Assembly: GCA_003116975.1 (NCBI GenBank)
Contig: BGKB01000165.1
Location: 62,001 to 126,000 of the forward strand
Source: Aurantiochytrium sp. KH105
Lineage: Eukaryota; Sar; Bigyra; Thraustochytrida; Thraustochytriidae
Direction of reading: 5' to 3'
Length of the DNA stretch: 64,000 nucleotides
A program made the position numbers and the translations under genes. Shown here one piece after another: positions 35,602-64,000 of the stretch (positions are counted from its first letter, which is position 1; each line of letters begins with the position of its first letter). The notes under the pieces were generated by a model. That model saw only the letters and a program-made list of their open reading frames with translations. It was not told where the DNA came from and made no database searches.

Positions 35602-38424
35602 TTACGACGATGATGTTGACACATTGGCGGATGGAGACGGGGACGGAGATGGAGACGGATTTGGAGACGAGGTTCTCGAAGCGTCAGAGACTCCATCGCC
35701 AGAAGACACGGAGCCGTCCACGGCGATGAGACGGTGCATGCGCTTGATTTTGGCAGCAATGGTTACCTGTGTAGCGCGCTCAAGTTGCTCCTGGGCCCAA
35801 AACGCCGTCGCATGATCGGAAAAGCGCAGCGCGAGGAACCATGTGGACCCCGTGGACTGTTTAGGGGCGCCAAACATGTTGGGAGCTTGCGCAGGGTTCG
35901 AAGCGCCCGTCTCGGTTTCATCGACCCAGGGGAAGAGCTCGGCGGCCTGGGCGAGCTGGTGATCCTTTTCCTGGGAGACTTGGTCTGACTTTGAAGCCGG
36001 GTGACCCGACTGCTGTTGTAGTGGTGCGGCCACTGCAGCAGAGGCGGGCGAATGCGCAGCGCGGAGAGGCGCAAGCTGACGATGTGCCCAGCCAATGGGC
36101 TGGTTTGTGGGCGAGCGCACCGCGAGGTACATGAGCAGAGGATCGTCAGCAGCCATGGCAAAACGCACGTGCTGAAGAGGGGCTACGGTGCGCACGATGC
36201 CCTTGGCAACATGGTGCTCGAGCGCCTTTTCCGGTTGCGCGAGCACGAGGGCGCCACCTGCGAGAACGAGAAAGGCCGGCTGAAGCGCAGCGAGTGCCCC
36301 CTTGGGATTGAGAATGCTGGCCTTGATGTAATCACACTTGCTGAGATCAATGGGGGCGTCCTCCTTGGTGGAAGTGCCCGATGAGCCAACGAGCGCGAGA
36401 AGAGAGTTTGGCTTGTTATGCAGTGTCACCCAGAGAAGACGCAGAATCATAAAGGAGCGGATAGCGGCTTGCGTGACTTCGAGACCGGAAAATGGCTGAC
36501 GTGCATCCAGAGGCATGCTCGGATGCGAAGGGAGAAGGGTTTCTGGGCGCGTCATGAGGCTTTCCACCTTGAGAGGGCCCTGGCAAAGCGAATTCCATTC
36601 ACGCTCAAAGAGGCCAATAAAACGAGCGGCCTCGTGAGTTTCGAACGACTGGAGCTGCGCGCGAAAGCGCACGAGTGACGCCATGTAGGCGCAATTCAAG
36701 AAGTCGAGGTCTCGCGCGTGGTCGAGCTTGGATTCGTACAAGAGGTCAATGGCGAGTTTGGCAACAACGCGCTGGCAAAGCGTGCTGACGGGAGGATCCT
36801 TGACGAGGACCTGTAGCAAGGTGCGGACGAGGGGACGTGGAAAGGGCGCGTCAGGTTGCGGGGCCAGACCCGTCTCGGCGAAGACGGTTGGGTCGAGATT
36901 TGGGTTGTGAATGAGCGCATAGAGGATGCTGGCAGCTGCCAAGCAGTGACGCTCGTTGTCGTGCTCCAAGAAGCGAAGAAGCGCGAGACCAACAGGATTT
37001 CCCTGATCCTGACTCCTGGGACCACTGGCGGAGGCTGTGGAGGAAGACCCCGCGCAAGGATCCGCGACGTTCTGTTGAGGGCCCGCAGAGCGGGTGACCG
37101 GGTTTGAGGAGCCAAGAATGCTACCGGCGCCGTCGGTTTCGTCGGAAAGATTCGCCTCGTCCTCTTCATTGGGGCCTTGGTCATGATCGATATCATCGTC
37201 AGATTTGGACCGTTCGTTTCGCGACGACTTTTCGTCTTCATGCTCGTGATCGTCGTCTTGCAAGAGGAGGGGGGCGGGGATGAACATGGCCTCCGTGATT
37301 CGAGTGACCATTTTCGGGTTTGAGAAGACGAAGAGAGCGTGGGCGAGAAGGAAGAGCGCTAGCAAGGAGCCAGACCCGCCCGTGGCACCCTGACCGAGGT
37401 TGACGTCTTGCTTGGAGAGTCCTGCCTGCTTGAAGTCGGCGTCGTCCATGTCGTCGAGCTCACTAAATGGAAAGGTGGCTGGAAGAAGGCTTGCCATGAG
37501 GAGTGGGAGAAAGAGGTAGGCCATGGCTGCGTTGACGACGGTGTCTTCCATACCGTCAATATTTAGGCTGAGGATATCTTCGAGGTAGAGCATGTGATCT
37601 TGTTGCTCGGTGAGCGCGACTTCGAGCTTGAGAGGCAAGCGCTTGTCCGGTTCGGGAAGGCCTGCGCGAACGAGCAGGAGATGCAAACGTCGGCAACGCT
37701 GGTGAATGTAGCGGACAACCTTTTCGATATAATGAACTGCAGGACCTTCGAGGAGGAAGCGCAGCATGATGGGATCGTCGACGCGAAAGACATTAAGGGT
37801 GATGGTGCGCACGGCTGTGCGGACCATGCCTTCGGGGTGGTCAAAGAACTTTGTGGCTTCTTCAAAAAGGGGAAAGGTGTGAAGGCGGTCGTTGAAGAAG
37901 AACTGGATGGTATTCTTGTTGAGACGAAGGGAGAGAGTCTTGAGGAAAGAGATGTAGTGGCCAAGAATTTCCTCGTTTGTGAAGTCGAACTTGTGCGATA
38001 TAAGTCGGTTGACGTGGTTGTTGCTGAGCGTATAGTACAGAGAGATTTCGCTGCGGATGTTTTGCACAAGAATGCTGACGCTCTGTATGATTTGCACTTT
38101 GAGAGTCGTGCTACAATTGGGCTGGTCAAGGAGGCCGAGGAAGAGGGGGAGCATGTTTTTTTCGCAAAAGTAATCGAAGAGCTGTTCGGTGTGCTGGTCC
38201 CCGTAGACGATGACCTCGGCAATGGCGCGAATGGTTTCGATGAGGACGGCCTGTCCGCTCTGGGTGGCCATGTTGCCACTGCTGAGGTCTTGATGTTTGT
38301 GGAGAGTGGCGTAGAGGTCCTGGAGCCGCTGGACAGTGAACTGCTCGTGGGGTGCTACGTTTTGGTGGTGCTGGCGTTGCTGGTCATTCTGCTGCTGCGC
38401 GCCGTGGCTCCGTGTGAACCACAT
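35602..38424 (-). CDS. CLEC16A: CLEC16A/Ema homologue with FPL domain
   Basis: A 940-aa protein. After a His/Gln-rich head (1-27), residues 28-215 are an FPL domain with near-diagnostic blocks: VIVYGDQHTEQLFDYFCEKN, LYYTLSNNHVNRLISHKFDF, HYISFLKTLSLRLN and FPLFEEATKFFDHPEGMVR. The family (CLEC16A, fly Ema, worm GOP-1) acts at endosomes and Golgi in vesicle maturation and mitophagy. An acidic linker (about 390-440, DDDHEHEDEKSS) and a helical C-terminal half follow, ending in a Ser-Pro repeat (PSPSPSPSPSA) encoded by a GACGGA-type repeat near 35630-35660. Its length is close to animal members. The start is the first Met; the region upstream is GC-rich. Confidence 0.92.
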   Translation of the reverse strand: MWFTRSHGAQQQNDQQRQHHQNVAPHEQFTVQRLQDLYATLHKHQDLSSGNMATQSGQAVLIETIRAIAEVIVYGDQHTEQLFDYFCEKNMLPLFLGLLDQPNCSTTLKVQIIQSVSILVQNIRSEISLYYTLSNNHVNRLISHKFDFTNEEILGHYISFLKTLSLRLNKNTIQFFFNDRLHTFPLFEEATKFFDHPEGMVRTAVRTITLNVFRVDDPIMLRFLLEGPAVHYIEKVVRYIHQRCRRLHLLLVRAGLPEPDKRLPLKLEVALTEQQDHMLYLEDILSLNIDGMEDTVVNAAMAYLFLPLLMASLLPATFPFSELDDMDDADFKQAGLSKQDVNLGQGATGGSGSLLALFLLAHALFVFSNPKMVTRITEAMFIPAPLLLQDDDHEHEDEKSSRNERSKSDDDIDHDQGPNEEDEANLSDETDGAGSILGSSNPVTRSAGPQQNVADPCAGSSSTASASGPRSQDQGNPVGLALLRFLEHDNERHCLAAASILYALIHNPNLDPTVFAETGLAPQPDAPFPRPLVRTLLQVLVKDPPVSTLCQRVVAKLAIDLLYESKLDHARDLDFLNCAYMASLVRFRAQLQSFETHEAARFIGLFEREWNSLCQGPLKVESLMTRPETLLPSHPSMPLDARQPFSGLEVTQAAIRSFMILRLLWVTLHNKPNSLLALVGSSGTSTKEDAPIDLSKCDYIKASILNPKGALAALQPAFLVLAGGALVLAQPEKALEHHVAKGIVRTVAPLQHVRFAMAADDPLLMYLAVRSPTNQPIGWAHRQLAPLRAAHSPASAAVAAPLQQQSGHPASKSDQVSQEKDHQLAQAAELFPWVDETETGASNPAQAPNMFGAPKQSTGSTWFLALRFSDHATAFWAQEQLERATQVTIAAKIKRMHRLIAVDGSVSSGDGVSDASRTSSPNPSPSPSPSPSANVSTSSS

Positions 38425-38689
38425 GGTGGCCGGGGCGTGCCCTCGGAGCTCGCTGTCTCGCGATTGCCCCTTTTCCTATCCTTGAGCTGCGTGCGTGCGA
38501 GCGACGCACGCAGAGCGCGGAGGCGAGGACGGAGGCGAAGGGCCCGGGCGCCGCCCTCGCGTGCCCTTGCGGCCGCCGTTTCGTTCGCGCCGCGCCGCGA
38601 GCTGCCCTGAGCCGAGCCACGCCGCGCTGCCGGCCGCCTTGTTGATTTGAATGTCGGAGGGCGCATTAACAATGTAACAAGCAGGAGGA
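38425..38689. other. 5' flank of the CLEC16A gene up to the transposon
   Basis: A GC-rich upstream region that turns AT-richer at about 38640, where the IS607 element's right end is likely near. No gene is seen. Confidence 0.4.
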
Positions 38690-38712
38690 GAGACCTGAGT
38701 CAGGAGAGACCT
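38686..38712. repeat. Direct repeat AGGAGAGACCT near the element's right side
   Basis: AGGAGAGACCT occurs at 38686-38696 and 38702-38712, 16 bases apart, at the edge of an AT-rich stretch downstream of tnpB. It might be part of the element's end or of the host flank. Confidence 0.4.
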
Positions 38713-38739
38713 CGTTACTACGCTACTATTAAAACCTAT

Positions 38740-38890
38740 AACTCAGCTGAAAACCTCGTTTTCCTCTTGGGAGACTGGGAGCATCCTTGGTATAGATTTC
38801 TGCAATGATGGGATCGTAAGAGGACTACGCTTGCCCATCACAGGCCGTAGAGGCAAAGGCTTGTCAAAAGACAGAGGCCGCATACCGACC
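38740..38890 (-). ncRNA. Candidate omega (guide) RNA region at the tnpB 3' end
   Basis: In TnpB and Fanzor systems the guide scaffold is encoded at the 3' end of the nuclease gene and runs towards the element's right end. Here CTACG (38825-38829) and CGTAG (38846-38850) form a stem, with GCC (38833-38835) and GGC (38843-38845) pairing inside, 14-40 bases past the tnpB stop. Position and structure fit; the boundaries and existence are inferred, not shown. Confidence 0.3.
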
Positions 38891-40147
38891 CATGTAGGTA
38901 GTCATGAATCGGATAAGAATATTGCGCGCACCATTAATATCGCGGTCGGCGACGTAGGAACAGTTCGCGTGTGGGCAGCGAAAGGTCTTGTCACGACCAA
39001 TGCCTGTATGGAGACGACCACATTGGCCGCATGTCTTGGTAGTGTAGGCCTCGCCCGTGATGAACACCTTGGTCCATGAGTTAAGTTCCGCGTGCTCGAG
39101 AAGGTGTTGCCTGAATGAGTAGTGACTCCACGTCAACAACTTTCGCGCCGTAGCGGATGTAATCTTCCGCGAGCCACGAAGGACCATTTGATTGGTGTCG
39201 AAGGTGGGGAGAATAACAACACGATAGTTGTTGCATAGCCAAGAGGCCAACTTCCTGTGCATCTCCTTGACGAGACGTCGAATGCGCACGAAAATCTTGC
39301 GCCATGCTCTATGGCGTCGACGACGTTGCTGCTTGTTGCTGGCGTTCTCAATCTTTGTTTGAAGACGATCCGCATGCCGACATAAGCGATAAATGCGCTG
39401 TATATCAGACTTGCCCCATTCCGTGACGAGACCATCCGCATCAAATGTCGTCATGAAGCACCTCACGCCCGGGTCCATGGCCACCGTCGAGTGAAAGCCG
39501 GTCTCAGGGGCCTGGTCATCGCCCTTGATCTCAACACTCATTGGGATGCACACATAGAAACAGCCGTGAAAGTCTCTGACAATACGAACCGTCGCTTCCA
39601 CCTCGGTCGGCAATATGCCCTCTGCCGCGCGTAAAGCTGGTCCAAATAGACCAGCATATTTCCCAGATTTGCGATTCCAGTCACGTGCACGCACTTCAAA
39701 GCTCTGCTGTCTGGCTTTCTTCGTCCTGAACTTGAACTTTGCTTTTTCGCTCACTTCCGTTTCGCCCTTCTTCTTCTTCGCGAAATGAGCTTGCCGTGCC
39801 TTATCCATGTCTCGCACGGCGGAGTCCCTCACCTCGTAGGGAACCTCTTGGAACCAATCATGCGCCTTCGCGTATTGGGATAGCTCGTGGCGCATCGTCG
39901 TCTTGCTCACTTCATGTTCGACATGCCTGAACTTCTCCACCAGTTTGTTGTAGGCGAATCTCATAGTTCCAAACCATCTGAGCAGCTTTTGTTCTTGCTC
40001 CTTTGTCGGATAAACGCGAATTTTGCGGGCCCTAATAGTCTTGGACTCGTCGATCTCGATCTCATCGTCGTCGAGAACAGACGCCTTCCGCTTGTTCTTG
40101 TTTGGTTCGTTCTCTCCCGACGGGACCTTGTCTTCCCGGGACATCAT
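38864..40147 (-). CDS. tnpB: TnpB/Fanzor-type RNA-guided DNA nuclease
   Basis: 427 aa from the tandem Met codons at 40147/40144; the frame stays open to 40786, mostly beneath tnpA. The N-terminal domain starts at RARKIRVYPTKEQEQKLLRW, typical of OrfB/TnpB. RuvC-I is D225 (VAMDPGVRCF). At RuvC-II the expected Glu position is P314 in VILPTFDTNQM, the Fanzor/viral IS607 pattern; E366 (FITGEAYTTK), about 50 residues on, is the candidate substitute. The zinc-ribbon cysteines are C373, C376, C391 and C396, and RuvC-III is D403 (DRDINGARNI). NKNKRKA (about 17-23) looks like a nuclear signal. By family knowledge it would cut DNA guided by an element-encoded RNA. A coiled-coil-like segment in the same frame lies upstream of the Met, so the true N-terminus is uncertain. 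Confidence 0.88.
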   Translation of the reverse strand: MMSREDKVPSGENEPNKNKRKASVLDDDEIEIDESKTIRARKIRVYPTKEQEQKLLRWFGTMRFAYNKLVEKFRHVEHEVSKTTMRHELSQYAKAHDWFQEVPYEVRDSAVRDMDKARQAHFAKKKKGETEVSEKAKFKFRTKKARQQSFEVRARDWNRKSGKYAGLFGPALRAAEGILPTEVEATVRIVRDFHGCFYVCIPMSVEIKGDDQAPETGFHSTVAMDPGVRCFMTTFDADGLVTEWGKSDIQRIYRLCRHADRLQTKIENASNKQQRRRRHRAWRKIFVRIRRLVKEMHRKLASWLCNNYRVVILPTFDTNQMVLRGSRKITSATARKLLTWSHYSFRQHLLEHAELNSWTKVFITGEAYTTKTCGQCGRLHTGIGRDKTFRCPHANCSYVADRDINGARNILIRFMTTYMGRYAASVF

Positions 40148-40247
40148 GGACCACTCATACTGCTGTCGATACGCGGCGATCGCCTGCAGCTCCCCTTGCG
40201 CCCGGGTTACCTTCTTCTCCAGCTTCTCTCGCGTAGCTTCTGCATCA

Positions 40248-40922
40248 TCAGAAGCGGCGAGTGCGTCCAGCTCTTCCAGCGTCTTCTTCACCTTCTCCTC
40301 TAGCTTCCTCTGCCTCTTCGCGGCGTCTCTTGCGATTCGCAGCTGCTCTACGTCCGTTATGACTTGCCACAAGGAGCGTCGTGATAGCGAGCAGGTCGTC
40401 GGCGTCGGCTGTGCACATGTCGCTGCACTGGCTGTGAACCACGACCCGAGCCCCAAATTTCGCAAAGATCTGCTCCAGGATGGGGTATCCAACACGCGCA
40501 AGCCTGTCCTTGTGCAAGACGACAACTTCCTTGAGACTTCGGTTGAAAGCGAGGTCCAAAAGGGCTTGCAGGCCTTTCCGACGGAAATTGGCGGCAGGTC
40601 CGGTATCCCAGATGACGCGGTGATCGGGGTATGCTCGACTGAGCTCAGCGACCTGTCGTTCGAGGTCGCCACGCTGCTTCGCGGAAGAGACCCGTGCGTA
40701 TATGACGCACTGTCCGTCTCCGGCGTCGGCACGCGGAAGCCCGACGAGCTCGAAGACATCAGAGACGCAATAGCATCGCTTTCCACCAGGGAGACGAATC
40801 AAGCGGATACGTTTGCTGTCGGCGCTTTTACGTAAAAAGTCTTGCGACACACCCAGACGTTCCACGAAGTATTTACCGGACCTGAAGACGGGTTCTGCCC
40901 GACCCCCACTCACGTCAGACAT
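40248..40922 (-). CDS. tnpA: IS607-type serine recombinase (transposase)
   Basis: A 224-aa protein. The N-terminus has a MerR-like helix-turn-helix (YFVERLGVSQDFLRKSADS, about 18-36). The catalytic domain starts at CVIYARVSSAKQRGDLERQV with nucleophile S79, followed by ANFRRKGLQALLDLA (about 109-123) and VVVLHKDRLARVGYPILE, all hallmark IS607 recombinase blocks. The end reads DDLLAITTLLVASHNGRRAA, as in the family, then a basic/acidic tail. IS607 recombinases excise and insert elements through a synaptic tetramer with little target preference. Length is typical (about 200-220 aa). The gene lies just upstream of tnpB, with about 100 bases between its stop and the tnpB Met. No break is visible. 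Confidence 0.92.
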   Translation of the reverse strand: MSDVSGGRAEPVFRSGKYFVERLGVSQDFLRKSADSKRIRLIRLPGGKRCYCVSDVFELVGLPRADAGDGQCVIYARVSSAKQRGDLERQVAELSRAYPDHRVIWDTGPAANFRRKGLQALLDLAFNRSLKEVVVLHKDRLARVGYPILEQIFAKFGARVVVHSQCSDMCTADADDLLAITTLLVASHNGRRAAANRKRRREEAEEARGEGEEDAGRAGRTRRF

Positions 40923-41098
40923 GCGTGGGTGAGGTCTCGTTTCGGTTTTGCTGCCCGACCTTTCGGGTTTGCTGGATCACCAAACAGCGTAGACGATCCG
41001 AGCTTCTGGAAGGAATACTCGAATCAATACAATCCGCGCTAATATTGTATATAGCTTTGTTCACCAATGATCGTTTGATTAGTATATTCGTTCCTACC

Positions 41099-41150
41099 CT
41101 AACGACCTAACGACCGTCGTTAGTGAATAGGTTTGCAAAGCTAACGTTAA
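41099..41150. repeat. CTAACGAC direct and inverted repeat cluster
   Basis: CTAACGAC occurs in tandem at 41099-41106 and 41107-41114. The inverted copy GTCGTTAG is at 41116-41123, CTAACG recurs at 41141-41146, and TTAACGTTAA-like palindromic sequence follows. It lies about 180-225 bases upstream of tnpA in AT-rich DNA. It may be a recombinase-binding site or part of the element's left end. Confidence 0.5.
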
Positions 41151-41886
41151 CAAAACTATTTTCTAACCTATCGGCATGGCAATGCCGACGACGGGGATAA
41201 AAACGATGCGAGAGCTAGAAGACACGACTCGGGAGGTGGGGTCGAACGGAATAGCAGCAGCGGCAGCACATGCCATGGATGATAAATTGTATCAGCTTTT
41301 TTTTATTTATTTAGTATAGTAGTCAGGTATCATCGAAGTACGAGGGGAGTACGTCGTCGTATTGTCAAAAGATTGTGCGTACGTACAGAGAGGCAAGGAA
41401 GGAAGGAAGGAAGGAACGAGGCAGCATGCCAAATGACGGTGTGGAACGAAGAGCATTTGCCGTCAGGGATTGTTGTCCAAATCCTCACCTTTGCGAAAAG
41501 GATGTTGTTCGTGGCGGCGACATGAGCGCGTTGCCACGAGGGGTTATATTATCCGGAGTGGGTGTTGAAGGCCACTATCATAGTCAAAACAGCGGGTTTA
41601 GCGGCGACCACCCGGAATGTCGGAAAAGACAAAGTCCTCTTGCTCGCTCCCACATTGTAGAGGGAAGCTTTATAAATTTGACAAGGAGAAGGAGGAAGAG
41701 GGGAAGCACTTGATAATGCGCATGAAGACAAAGTCAGTGAGTCTTCTCTCTCCTCTCCTCTCCTCTTGTCTCATCTCGTCATGCGTCAAAATGGACGTCC
41801 CCTTCAGTTGTCTTTGGTCTCTCACCTCCTGTTGAAGGCAATGCAGACATAAACACGCACACAGGGTTGATCAGGCGGAGAATACA
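41151..41886. other. Region between the transposon and the AP2 gene
   Basis: An AT-rich start is followed by (GGAA)n-like AAGGAAGG runs (about 41395-41415), then sequence belonging to the AP2 gene's 3' flank. An open frame at 41375-41713 shows no family signal and is not called. Confidence 0.5.
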
Positions 41887-42969
41887 TTACACGGCAACGG
41901 CAGTGAAGCCGCTCGGAGCTTCGTTGGGAAAGTTGAGGCAGGCACGCTTCTCGTGGTACTGGATGGCAGCTTTGTCATAAGCACGTGCAGCCGACAGCTC
42001 ATCCTTGAAGCGCCCGAGGTAAATGACCTTGGGTCCCACACGAATGCGCGACTGGAAACGACCGTCCTTGCTGCAGCGCGAGACGCCACGGTATTGGGAA
42101 GACTGCTCGCGACTGCGCTGGGATGCCTTTTTGGCGGCCTTGGAGGTCGGCGAGGGGGCCACGGACCTGGGCGAAGGGGTTGCCTTGCGCGTGGCCTTGT
42201 GCATGCGCTTCAACTTTTTGGTTTCGGGCGCGGTGAGGCTCGTTGAGGCCGGGCGCGAGAGGGACGCCGAGGCCTTACGGGACTTGGTCTTGGCAGGCAC
42301 CGTGGAGTTGCGGCGCGCCGAAGGGGCGGTGGCCGAGATGTTGGCGGAGGGAAGACCTTCGCTGAGATTGGCCGAGGGCAGTTGCGCAGCACGCGGAAGA
42401 AAGTTTGGCATCAACAGTTGCGAAGCGAAGAGCACGGAGCTCTTACGCCGACGCGAAGCGGGGCCCTGTGAGGCACCGCCGTTCGCGGTGTTGGACTCTG
42501 TTCCGAGGGCCAAATGTCCCCAATCCGTGTCGAGAGGGCCGGGAAAGTCTGCGTTCAACTCCAAGCCGGCAAGCCAGTTGTTGGCGGGGTCCTCATATCC
42601 CGTGACCTGGAGAGAGGCTGCGCTGGGGTTGAAGATTTGACCAAAGGACATGGGCGAGAAACCGGCAGCGGTGGGAGCAAAGTGATGCTGGTTGTTGAAG
42701 TTGATGTGGGTGGTGATTGCGTTCGTCGTGCTGATTGGGGCAAAACCTGCAGCAGCGTTAAAGAAGGCCTCCTGGGTCGGGGTGTGATGGGCCGGGTCCA
42801 CGTCGACGATGGGGTTGGCGTCTCCGAGTTCTTCGTTCGTGACATTCCAGAAGGCGGGGCCGTTGTCCACGCCGGCTTCGATAAAGCCCATGTCCATGCT
42901 TTCGGGCGTGGGCGGGTGTTCCGTGGCCATGGAGGCCTTGCTCGAGAACTCAAAGGTGTCCTTCGTCAT
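41887..42969 (-). CDS. AP2/ERF-domain DNA-binding protein
   Basis: Predicted 360 aa from the ATG at 42969 (MTKDTFEFSSKASM); 84 upstream codons are open but come from a (CGCA)n repeat and Arg-rich sequence. The N-terminal 200 residues are rich in Asn, Ala, Pro and Phe, with several FxP-type motifs, and look like an activation region. A Lys/Ser/Pro basic stretch (about 240-290) is a likely nuclear signal. The C-terminal 55 residues carry a single AP2 domain: QYRGVSRCSKDGRFQSRIRV, then KVIYLGRFKDELSAARAYDK and CLNFPNE. AP2 proteins of stramenopiles and apicomplexans bind DNA through this three-strand sheet. It is probably a transcription factor. Confidence 0.88.
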   Translation of the reverse strand: MTKDTFEFSSKASMATEHPPTPESMDMGFIEAGVDNGPAFWNVTNEELGDANPIVDVDPAHHTPTQEAFFNAAAGFAPISTTNAITTHINFNNQHHFAPTAAGFSPMSFGQIFNPSAASLQVTGYEDPANNWLAGLELNADFPGPLDTDWGHLALGTESNTANGGASQGPASRRRKSSVLFASQLLMPNFLPRAAQLPSANLSEGLPSANISATAPSARRNSTVPAKTKSRKASASLSRPASTSLTAPETKKLKRMHKATRKATPSPRSVAPSPTSKAAKKASQRSREQSSQYRGVSRCSKDGRFQSRIRVGPKVIYLGRFKDELSAARAYDKAAIQYHEKRACLNFPNEAPSGFTAVAV

Positions 42970-43713
42970 GGTGCTCGACGAGAAGGAATAGGCTTCTGCG
43001 TGGCTCTCCAGCAGATTATCCTTGTCGAGGCTTAAGCGCTCGGCGCTTTCACTCAAGCAAGCACGCACGCACGCACGCACGTCCGCACGCACGTACACGA
43101 ATAGACGTGAGCGGCTGAATGAAACTCGCTGCCTTGAAGGTCGGCCGCGGCGAGGTGTATACGAGGTCTGCCCGGCGCTGTCCGCACGTGCCGCCCTCTG
43201 CCCCCTGGCTCCCCTCTGCAAATCCTTCCCGCAGGCCTCTGCCCCTCGATCTTTCCAGTGGCGCCCGTCCCCGCTGCGGGTCCGAGCCGTCAGGACCCCA
43301 AGTCCCTACCCTCCACTTCCCTCTGCGCGATCCCCAGAGGCACGCATTTCTAGTGGCGCAAAGAGGACAGCCATCTGCACGCGCTCCGCCTTTATTCTGT
43401 CTCATCGGGACGGTCAACGCTCGTCCCTGCTGCCTCGTCGGCGTTGCGCGGCGGAGGAGGTGATTTTTCATATTTTCATTCCTCCCTCACTTTTCCTTGG
43501 ATTTTTTTCTTTTCTTTTCTTCAATTTCTTTTTCTTTTCTTTTCTTACTTTTCTTTCTTTTTTTTCTTTTTTTTCTGGCTCGGATCGGCGGCACGCGCGT
43601 GCAGCTGCAGGACGCAGTGCGCCGCTCTGCCCGGCCATGGCGGCCACGCACGCCCCGTCTGCGCCGTCGCTCGTGCCTGGCTTCACATCAGCCGCAAGCC
43701 ACATGCCACTGCC

Positions 43714-61979: not shown

Positions 61980-64000
61980 TCAGTGGCCTCGTGGGGAGTC
62001 CTCAAGTTGAAGGGCTGCGAGCGAATATCTGAGAAACGCAAGCTGAATGACGCGCGCGGCCGCGTTTCGCTTAAAGTCGTCGTTGTCTGTGGGGTCAAAC
62101 TCCAAAACGTCGGTCGAAGGTAGTGTCGAACGAGATTTGTGCGACGCATTTCGTGTCTTCGCGTCGCCAATGTTGTTGTTCTTGTCGTCGTTCTTTTGTA
62201 AGCTGTGCTTGGCAGTTTGCTTGCGATCATGCATCAGTTCGTTTTCGAAATCGGCCTCGTCTTGCGCGTCGTCATCGTCATCGAACTCAAAATCTTCATC
62301 GTCATACGAGGACGCATCGTCCGCGGACGTAGTCGACGCCGGAGGGCTGTCTGACCTTTCGGAAGTCCAAGATGCCGTTGAGGAAGAAGTAAATTGGCGA
62401 TGAGCGTGAGCATAACGTTGTTGCCGAACGGGACTTGTACCTTCTTCAATGAGCCGCTCAAAAAGCGCACCACCAGAGCTGAGGCTTCGTGACGAGGAAA
62501 GCAGACTCTGCGAGGACCTCGACGAGGCCACGGACTCATTGGTGGCGGGATCAACGTCGTGATCTGTCTGAGGCGCTGCATGACGAGACTGGCCCAGTCT
62601 GCAAGACAATGGAGAAGGCTGCGCGATACGCTCCTGCTGAATCTTGGCGCCATGCTGGATATCCCTGTGATTCTGTCGCTCCCATTGCTGTTCTTTATGT
62701 CGTTGTTGCTCATTGTCAATTTCTTGTACGTGCTGCTGCTGTTGCTGCTGCTCCATCTTCCAAGCAAGCGCGCGTGCAAGAGGATCATTTCGACCTCGAA
62801 GCTGGTCAATGGGCGGAAGCGAAACGTCTTGCGCACTGCTAAGAATATTCAACACTTCATTTGCGTCACGTGCTTTCGCAGCGCGCTCGCGCGGATTGAT
62901 CTTGTGTGGGAGCTTCCTCGAAAGAGAGCGACGCGACGCAGATTTGGCCTTTGTATGGCGACGCGCCCCCGCGTGATTGCCATTCGGGCCAAGAGGAAGC
63001 ACTGACACCGACACGACAGCTCCGGCACCCGCGTGCTTGCGAGCGATGCGTCTACGCAAGGTCTCGGCCTTCTTGCGCATGTCTTCCTTGCGCTCTTCTT
63101 CTTCGCGTAAATGTTGTTCCTCGAGACGCTTCTGCTCCTCTTTTTCTTTGCGCTTTTGCTGAGCGACGCGCTTGAGGCGGGATTGACGCTGTCGCTCATG
63201 CTCGGCAGCAAGCTGGAGTCGGCGCTCTTGCTTTTCCTGCTGCTTGATTGCATCAAGCGCCTTGCGCTGACGTGCTTCGGCTTGCTCAGCGCGTGCGCGA
63301 CGCGCGGCTTGCTTGCGAATCTTTTCAAGTCGTGCTTGGTCACGCTGTTTGAAGGAAGCCATGCGCTTCTTCGCAGCAGCCCGGATCTCGCGCTGCTCGC
63401 GCTCGTTTTCTTCAATAAGAGCCTGCAGGCGCTTGCGTGTCTCCTTGCTAGCCTCGGCGAGACTCGCCTCCGAGGCTGCTGTGGGCGCGCTCTTCACCAA
63501 CGTCGGGGCTGTGGGTTCACAACCTTGTTGTCGTTGAAGGGACGCCCTGCGCGCGGGGACTACTTGGGCGCGATGGGCGACGCTGGTCTGTCGAGCGGCG
63601 TCAATAGTGGGCGCAGCGGACTCCATGGCTACGTCCTTTGTCTGTGTGGGAATGGCTGCGTCTTTTTCGGGTTGCAAGATTGAGGCAGCAACGCCAGCAG
63701 CTGCAGCAGCGGCAGATGCAGCAGCGGCGCGCTCCTCCTGCACGCGGGCCTCGAGAAGAGCCTCGCGTTCTTTTTCCTTTTTGCGCAAGGCTTTGCGCAG
63801 GGCCATCTGTCGCTCCTTTTCAATTCGAAGCATCGAAGCACGACGCTGCTGCGCGATGCGCTCTTGCTCGGCAGCCTTGAGTTTTTCTGCCCTTGCGCGA
63901 GCCTTGCGGCGTTCGCGGCGTTGCTCGGCGACAAGGCCCCCGAAGTCACTCTTTTTCCGTCGCCACGGAAGCAGAATGATGCCGTCCTGGTCCGCCTGCT
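61980..64000 (-). CDS. Long coiled-coil protein with IQ-like motif, 5' end outside the window
   Basis: The frame is open to the window edge; upstream of Met 63833 it reads RRKKSDFGGLVAEQRRERRK, so the gene continues beyond 64000. The first 330 residues shown are a charged coiled coil (KERQMALRKALRKKEKEREA; EEQKRLEEQHLREEEERKED). A Gln/His-rich and Ser-rich disordered part follows, with an acidic run (about 510-535, YDDEDFEFDDDDDAQDEAD counted from Met 63833). The C-terminus ends in NAAARVIQLAFLRYSLAAL, which resembles an IQ calmodulin-binding helix. It is probably a cytoskeletal or scaffold protein; the family is not identified. Confidence 0.7.
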   Translation of the reverse strand, partial: QADQDGIILLPWRRKKSDFGGLVAEQRRERRKARARAEKLKAAEQERIAQQRRASMLRIEKERQMALRKALRKKEKEREALLEARVQEERAAAASAAAAAAGVAASILQPEKDAAIPTQTKDVAMESAAPTIDAARQTSVAHRAQVVPARRASLQRQQGCEPTAPTLVKSAPTAASEASLAEASKETRKRLQALIEENEREQREIRAAAKKRMASFKQRDQARLEKIRKQAARRARAEQAEARQRKALDAIKQQEKQERRLQLAAEHERQRQSRLKRVAQQKRKEKEEQKRLEEQHLREEEERKEDMRKKAETLRRRIARKHAGAGAVVSVSVLPLGPNGNHAGARRHTKAKSASRRSLSRKLPHKINPRERAAKARDANEVLNILSSAQDVSLPPIDQLRGRNDPLARALAWKMEQQQQQQHVQEIDNEQQRHKEQQWERQNHRDIQHGAKIQQERIAQPSPLSCRLGQSRHAAPQTDHDVDPATNESVASSRSSQSLLSSSRSLSSGGALFERLIEEGTSPVRQQRYAHAHRQFTSSSTASWTSERSDSPPASTTSADDASSYDDEDFEFDDDDDAQDEADFENELMHDRKQTAKHSLQKNDDKNNNIGDAKTRNASHKSRSTLPSTDVLEFDPTDNDDFKRNAAARVIQLAFLRYSLAALQLEDSPRGH

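Follow-up and report, generated by a model that had tools for sequence, protein, structure and literature searches.

A young, probably autonomous IS607-family transposon with a Fanzor2 gene in the genome of Aurantiochytrium sp. KH105

A stretch of 64,000 nucleotides from the thraustochytrid Aurantiochytrium sp. KH105 (hereafter referred to as the window; positions 62001–126000 of contig BGKB01000165.1, labeled C165, in the assembly GCA_003116975.1, 76.03 Mb in 367 contigs) contains an element with two genes, encoding a serine recombinase (TnpA) and a protein of the TnpB/Fanzor family. Judged from its sequence, this is very likely to be a eukaryotic IS607-family transposon that is complete, young and probably autonomous, in which TnpA would move the element and TnpB would act as an RNA-guided nuclease. 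A preliminary description had placed an IS607 transposon with a Fanzor-type nuclease here, between ordinary host genes, with the two frames in tandem and unbroken, S79 of the recombinase in ARVSS, and D225, D403 and a four-cysteine ribbon in the TnpB-family protein. The analysis bears this out, through matches to family models, the DPG motif and alternative glutamate (Ealt) of TnpB, the CG core dinucleotide, un-inserted homologs of the site, eukaryotic-type neighbours and copies at several loci; both genes are intact, on the minus strand, and their expected residues were found. The suggestion that the element is autonomous and could still move also appears well supported, by the intact TnpA, three near-identical copies, and the presence or absence of the insertion between homologous contigs. 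An element does lie at the span first given for it, 38690–41150, but its true ends, from core to core, are 38721 and 41173 (Table 1). It adds a well-delimited case to the eukaryotic IS607-Fanzor2 elements already in print.

The window element is one of at least four copies of a family, labeled A; two further families are labeled B and C. The genome search scored the best candidates only, so that every copy number given here is a lower bound: the TNB domain (PF07282) has at least 25 matches in the assembly, and the window TnpA at least 19. Three family A copies, in contigs C165, C266 and C242, are full-length with both frames open, and one, in C27, is broken. The copies in C266 and C242 are 99.4% and 98.7% identical to that of the window, and 98.3% identical to each other, with 7 to 12 base changes per pair over the 427 codons of TnpB, and one or two amino acid differences over the 224 codons of TnpA (the C242 TnpA has 227 residues). 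The flanks of the family A copies are mutually unrelated, and the 3′ host flank is different in each of the four. Un-inserted homologs were identified for three of them, namely C9 for the window copy (flanks 97% and 89% identical), C48 for that in C242 (95% and 97%) and C297 for that in C27 (90%); for C266, no homologous flank was found in the assembly. The near-identity of the copies, together with the presence or absence of the insertion between homologous contigs, argues for recent movement. The further copies and empty sites that the preliminary description had proposed to look for are thus found within this assembly, as at least two more intact and one broken family A copy and as the three homologous contigs; as to bacterial contamination, the flanks are found without the element in C9, which speaks strongly against it. 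The C27 copy (locus L032) is split by inserts; it contains a 783-bp piece that matches, at 99.5% identity, a stretch located ∼3.1 kb from the C201 copy of family B.

In element orientation, the left end is C-CG-A(T/G)AGGTTAG in all four family A copies and their right end is TAGTAG-CG; CG is present at both ends in these four and in two family B copies. The base preceding the left core is C in all four family A copies, and T in family B. No target-site duplication was found in the C165/C9, C242/C48 and C27/C297 comparisons. The target CG is retained in C297 only, which corresponds to the predicted target with one change directly beside the core and one five bases off; in C9 and C48 it is lost along with junction deletions. 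No terminal inverted repeats were found, the sole inverted repeat being an 8-mer inside the element, within 50 nt of the ends and not at them; the published description of IS607 (PMC6188088) reports an imperfect inverted repeat near the ends. There, IS607 has a serine transposase, and its recombination signature is an identical 2-bp core without duplication, the core being GG. On sequence grounds, the identical CG at both ends and at the target, with no duplication, is this serine-recombinase signature, with CG replacing GG in families A and B; most family C copies have GG.

TnpA matches the NCBIfam IS607 transposase model NF033518 at 118.6 bits (cut-off 110), over residues 19–196 of 224 and model positions 3–186 of 187. 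The Resolvase domain (PF00239) is matched by residues 73–209; for the N-terminal part, no separate Pfam match was obtained at 0.1. Five matches were found among the sequences of solved structures, including the IS607-type TnpAs of ISC1926, ISC1904 and IS1535. S79 is presumably the nucleophile, and the catalytic roles of D139-R140 and R143 are likewise assumed from serine recombinases in general.

For TnpB, the guided_TnpB model NF040570 is matched at 142.9 bits (cut-off 100) over positions 2–389 of 389, and the Pfam Cas12f1-like TNB and HTH_OrfB models are passed as well; the score is under cut-off for PF01385 (28.3 against 30.5), and for the narrow 'exception' models NF038281 and NF038280. 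The numbering over 427 residues starts at a methionine that family B shares, while the frame is open over 640 codons, the first 213 of which precede this methionine and mostly overlap tnpA. The best match of the 640-residue frame among solved-structure sequences is the mimivirus TnpB-like protein L79 (PDB 9b0l, E 2.8e-23). D225 is followed by P-G, and E366 lies six residues before the zinc ribbon (with C373). According to PMC10711439, Fanzors and cyanobacterial pro-Fanzors have as their fingerprint DPG together with a glutamate six residues ahead of the zinc ribbon. The canonical RuvC-II glutamate position is occupied by ILPTFDT, and LPTFET or a similar motif is found in many bacterial relatives. 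D225, E366 and D403 are invariant in 26 of 26 alignment rows, the window row included. Between families A and B, the synonymous sites of tnpB are saturated while the non-synonymous divergence (dN) is 0.23–0.24, which indicates purifying selection on TnpB during this divergence. As a TnpB-family protein whose gene sits in an IS607 element within a eukaryotic genome, the window TnpB would count as a Fanzor2, and its family and residues suggest that it would be a working RNA-guided nuclease. A basic stretch near its N-terminus, resembling a nuclear localisation signal (Table 1), has the counterpart KKKSKMKRK in family B.

In the cycle proposed for this element, TnpA would excise it as a circle, and re-insert the circle through exchange at a CG dinucleotide. 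TnpB would bind an RNA consisting of its own 3′ untranslated region and roughly the first 20 nt of the host flank, and would cut DNA possessing the same flank beside a CCG-like motif, i.e., a site without the element; repair after the cut would then restore or copy the element. The 146-nt region at the right end is a weakly supported candidate for the scaffold of this guide RNA (reRNA/omegaRNA). The ISXfa1 reRNA is of similar length, ∼150 nt, and extends past the right end (PMC10711439). Within the candidate region, families A and B share a stem despite two double (compensatory) changes and one single change, with pairing in 28 of 28 cells; its covariation score was reached by 17 of 500 shuffles, and the stem slid by 1 to 3 columns scores lower. 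No Rfam match was found up to an E-value of 1 within 38600–41300. The C before the core in all four family A copies suggests CCG as a candidate target-adjacent motif (TAM); since the right-end boundary of the window element reads GCG, not CCG, its own junction would be spared.

Several observations weigh against the interpretation of the element and its RNA given above. The number of double-change pairs in the stem was reached by 353 of 500 shuffles, and the covariation comes from four distinct rows, essentially one A-to-B divergence, with the stem picked from the same alignment. An eighth predicted pair (columns 65/87), broken in family B, was omitted from the stem, and family B also breaks several pairs among the other 38 predicted. 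The folding energy of the candidate RNA is not significantly better than that of shuffled sequences (z −0.84), 39 of 200 of which fold as well. C9 and C48 are not exact predicted targets, 27 bp and 4 bp respectively being absent at the junction. The TnpB differences among the three intact family A copies are too few for showing selection, and the position of tnpB as a downstream second gene poses a problem for its translation in a eukaryote.

Table 1. Coordinates of the element, its genes and candidate RNA, and the flanking open reading frames (ORFs), in window positions.
Feature	Position	Strand	Details
Whole IS607-type element	38721..41173	-	2453 bp; left end 41173, right end 38721, CG core counted at both ends; from the alignment of copies C165, C266 and C242 and un-inserted homologs
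Left-end CG core	41172..41173	-	preceding flank C gives CCG, candidate TAM
Right-end CG core	38721..38722	-	
tnpA, IS607 serine recombinase, 224 aa	40248..40922 (including stop)	-	S79 in YARVSS (residues 75–80); D139-R140 and R143 in KDRLARVG
tnpB / Fanzor2, 427 aa	38864..40147 (including stop)	-	D225 (DPG), E366 (Ealt), D403; zinc ribbon C373/C376/C391/C396
Basic stretch NKNKRK, TnpB residues 16–21, near N-terminus	40085..40102	-	nuclear-localisation-like, by reading only
Candidate reRNA/omegaRNA scaffold, 146 nt	38721..38866	-	tnpB stop codon to right end
Covarying stem of candidate reRNA	38805..38841	-	arms 38835–38841 and 38805–38811
Host flank 3′ of right end	38700..38720	-	would-be reRNA guide, by analogy with ISXfa1
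CLEC16A/FPL homolog ORF	35602–38424		flanks element
Flanking ORF	41887–43221		no Pfam match at 1e-5; AP2-like motif by reading only

The junctions of the un-inserted homologs bear on a further explanation, that of Fanzor-driven homing, in which homologs lacking the element would be cut by the nuclease, and empty alleles would survive where their CCG or core was destroyed by end-joining or by earlier mutation. The CCG is absent at the junction in all three family A homologs, by deletion in C9 and C48 and by a C-to-G change in C297, while in the same flanks 11–17% of CCG triplets (9/73, 2/12 and 1/9) and 13–21% of all triplets are changed, which makes a loss in three of three out of the ordinary. 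Over families A and C, indels lie within three columns of the junction in four of eight pairs, where 1.3 would be expected (tail 0.019); a ninth pair, C109/C4, with 127 bp extra between the flanks, was excluded. A precedent is offered by bacterial TnpB, described in PMC11870625 as a gene drive against plasmids lacking the insertion sequence. However, the sample is small and the comparison post hoc, and with a margin of one column the count falls to three of eight pairs against 1.0 expected (tail 0.053). The family C homologs C53 and C76 keep the core, as does C95 with an extra G; the 27 bp missing from C9 belong to the left-end side of the core and not to the side that the guide would match; and C4 has more sequence rather than less. 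I regard homing as unlikely. The broader proposal, that the family spreads across homologous chromosomes by RNA-guided cutting of empty alleles, as a natural gene drive to which the surviving alleles are resistant through loss of CCG, is similarly doubtful, and if anything slightly more so. Were homing true, resistance alleles of a natural gene drive would be visible within one assembly with homologous contigs. Taking the junction deletions as strong evidence for cleavage scars was tried and abandoned, as the addition of C297, C76 and the background count brought the tail to 0.02–0.05.

That the element is a relic without activity, or a pair of genes that was domesticated and no longer moves, is improbable. 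Damage is indeed found in other copies, as in the split C27 copy, the family B tnpA genes of C201 and C200, and the deletions and stops of family C, but the three intact copies are near-identical, at different loci with unrelated flanks, and two of them have empty homologs (C9 and C48). Nuclease-dead TnpB repressors are known; for the window TnpB, no observation speaks in favour of an RNA-guided DNA-binding regulator instead of a nuclease, and the presence of D225, E366 and D403, with the invariance noted above, makes this a long shot. Bacterial contamination or mis-assembly, brought to mind by the largely cyanobacterial names among the best 80 bacterial relatives kept, is very unlikely indeed, to the point of being negligible, given that the flanks in C9 match on both sides without the element, that the neighbours are of eukaryotic type and that related copies lie on many contigs.

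Beyond family A, nine joined flanks of family B and C copies were searched, and for four a place could be followed through the junction. For loci L036 and L034 the flank matches are split, in opposite orientations, and for L039 they are one-sided only, including one in C35, itself filled; those of L037 and L038 match nothing but themselves in the assembly, and L033 was left out of the search for its simple-repeat flank. Three further flanks led to C76, which spans the junction, to C4, and to C49, where 2.03 kb lie between the flanks and the site is probably filled. At the junction of the nine homologs, bases are missing in C9, C48 and C67, one is extra in C95, bases are changed in C8, and there is no indel in C297, C53 and C76. 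The remaining one, C4 (locus L197, C4:578430–579010), is the homolog of the C109 insertion and has ∼127 bp between the flanks, so that either target sequence was deleted upon this insertion or the homolog has acquired extra bases.

To place TnpB among its relatives, bacterial and archaeal genomes were scanned with alignment A5, yielding 243 relatives among 296 stretches, of which the best 80 were kept. From their genus names, I take 66 of these 80 to be cyanobacterial, and 14 to be others. Among 34 of the best 80 that were inspected, 28 possess a usable ORF, with Ealt in all 28 and DPG in 26; one relative (L063) additionally holds an IEDL string, and 12 of the 34 have a motif resembling tnpA a short distance upstream. 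The window TnpB is 29–34% identical to 20 bacterial rows. In the viral collection, no relatives were found with single window proteins, alignment A5 or family C queries, and 56 loci were found with the 26-row alignment A6. In a tree of 66 rows, built without Fanzor1 sequences, families A and B fall together (100/100) on a branch of 1.08 changes per column, whose joining to a viral contig is weak (87/67). Family C groups with mimivirus L79 (96/86), L79 and C both being flagged as long branches, and under the starred branches the rows from this genome cannot form one group. This suggests, from sequence, two separate Fanzor lineages in this genome; if the tree holds, IS607-Fanzor elements probably entered it on two or more occasions.

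Publications on eukaryotic IS607-Fanzor2 elements go back to 2013, and such elements are described from giant viruses as well (PMC3627910, PMC10711439). The window element resembles ACa-1, ACa-2 (ACa standing for Acanthamoeba castellanii) and other eukaryotic Fanzor2 elements, as described in PMC3627910, in its IS607-type serine recombinase and Fanzor2 and its lack of terminal inverted repeats and target duplication. This likeness is by description only; here there are in addition three intact near-identical copies, un-inserted homologs and probably two Fanzor lineages. With the cyanobacterial pro-Fanzor IS607 elements (PMC10711439) it shares DPG, Ealt and an LPTFxT-type motif replacing the canonical RuvC-II glutamate, but differs from these in the long branch of families A and B, the CG core and, by reading, the basic N-terminal stretch. 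Mimivirus L79 is the top solved-structure match of the window tnpB, yet in the tree it stands beside family C, not the window family.

According to Saito et al. (PMC10432273), genetic manipulation of the native hosts would have to become more sophisticated before the role that Fanzors play for the transposons carrying them in living eukaryotes can be learned. In this genome, several families have sharply defined ends, young intact copies retain their transposase, and un-inserted homologs exist at the same loci, which makes these a good natural test case for the role of the nuclease; there are also a diverged sister family (B) for comparing the RNA, and a virus-like Fanzor family (C). The nuclease is also compact, at 427 residues.

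Seven ORFs of the window were scanned, and five have Pfam matches (CLEC16A/FPL, TPR, DUF1765, WD40 and a kinase with an RWD domain), all of a eukaryotic kind or common in eukaryotes. The window contains 14 uninterrupted ORFs of at least 450 codons, which suggests few introns. A search of the genome for capsid proteins of nucleocytoplasmic large DNA viruses gave no match, as was also the case for the controls. At least 13 of 47 scored 5S rRNA matches are no more than 5.5 kb away from the end of a contig, 11 of them close to its start and those in C165 and C201 at the other side; this may reflect a subtelomeric arrangement.

The family B copies, in C201 and C200, encode a TnpB 68–69% identical to that of the window. 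The tnpA of the C201 copy has a stop in its N-terminal part, and that of C200 is open N-terminally, but its frame of 260 codons lacks an ATG upstream of residue 198; in both, a TGA follows HQA, which only ends the frame earlier than in family A. Family C copies are 1.0–2.1 kb long where both ends were found, and 88–100% identical in element pieces above 1 kb. Their core is GG at the left and right ends of most copies, whereas one or two have AG as the left core; a TA core, considered from two copies, was discarded once further copies showed GG at most ends. Several have internal deletions or tnpA stops. In the deleted copies (loci L038, L042, L043, L044 and others), the right end, with the candidate RNA, is kept while much of tnpA or tnpB is gone, reminiscent of the ghost loci mentioned by Saito et al. 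(PMC10432273). The C179 copy (locus L042, 3580–3624) has its right end in tandem duplicate, the second adjoining the host flank. Contig C168 has two family C copies (loci L037 and L038) ∼28 kb apart in ORF-dense DNA, where six of eight scanned ORFs have no Pfam match at 0.01; at L037 the GC content is 40–46% per kb, compared to 46–70% in the window. This region is possibly a foreign or viral insert that carried family C in.

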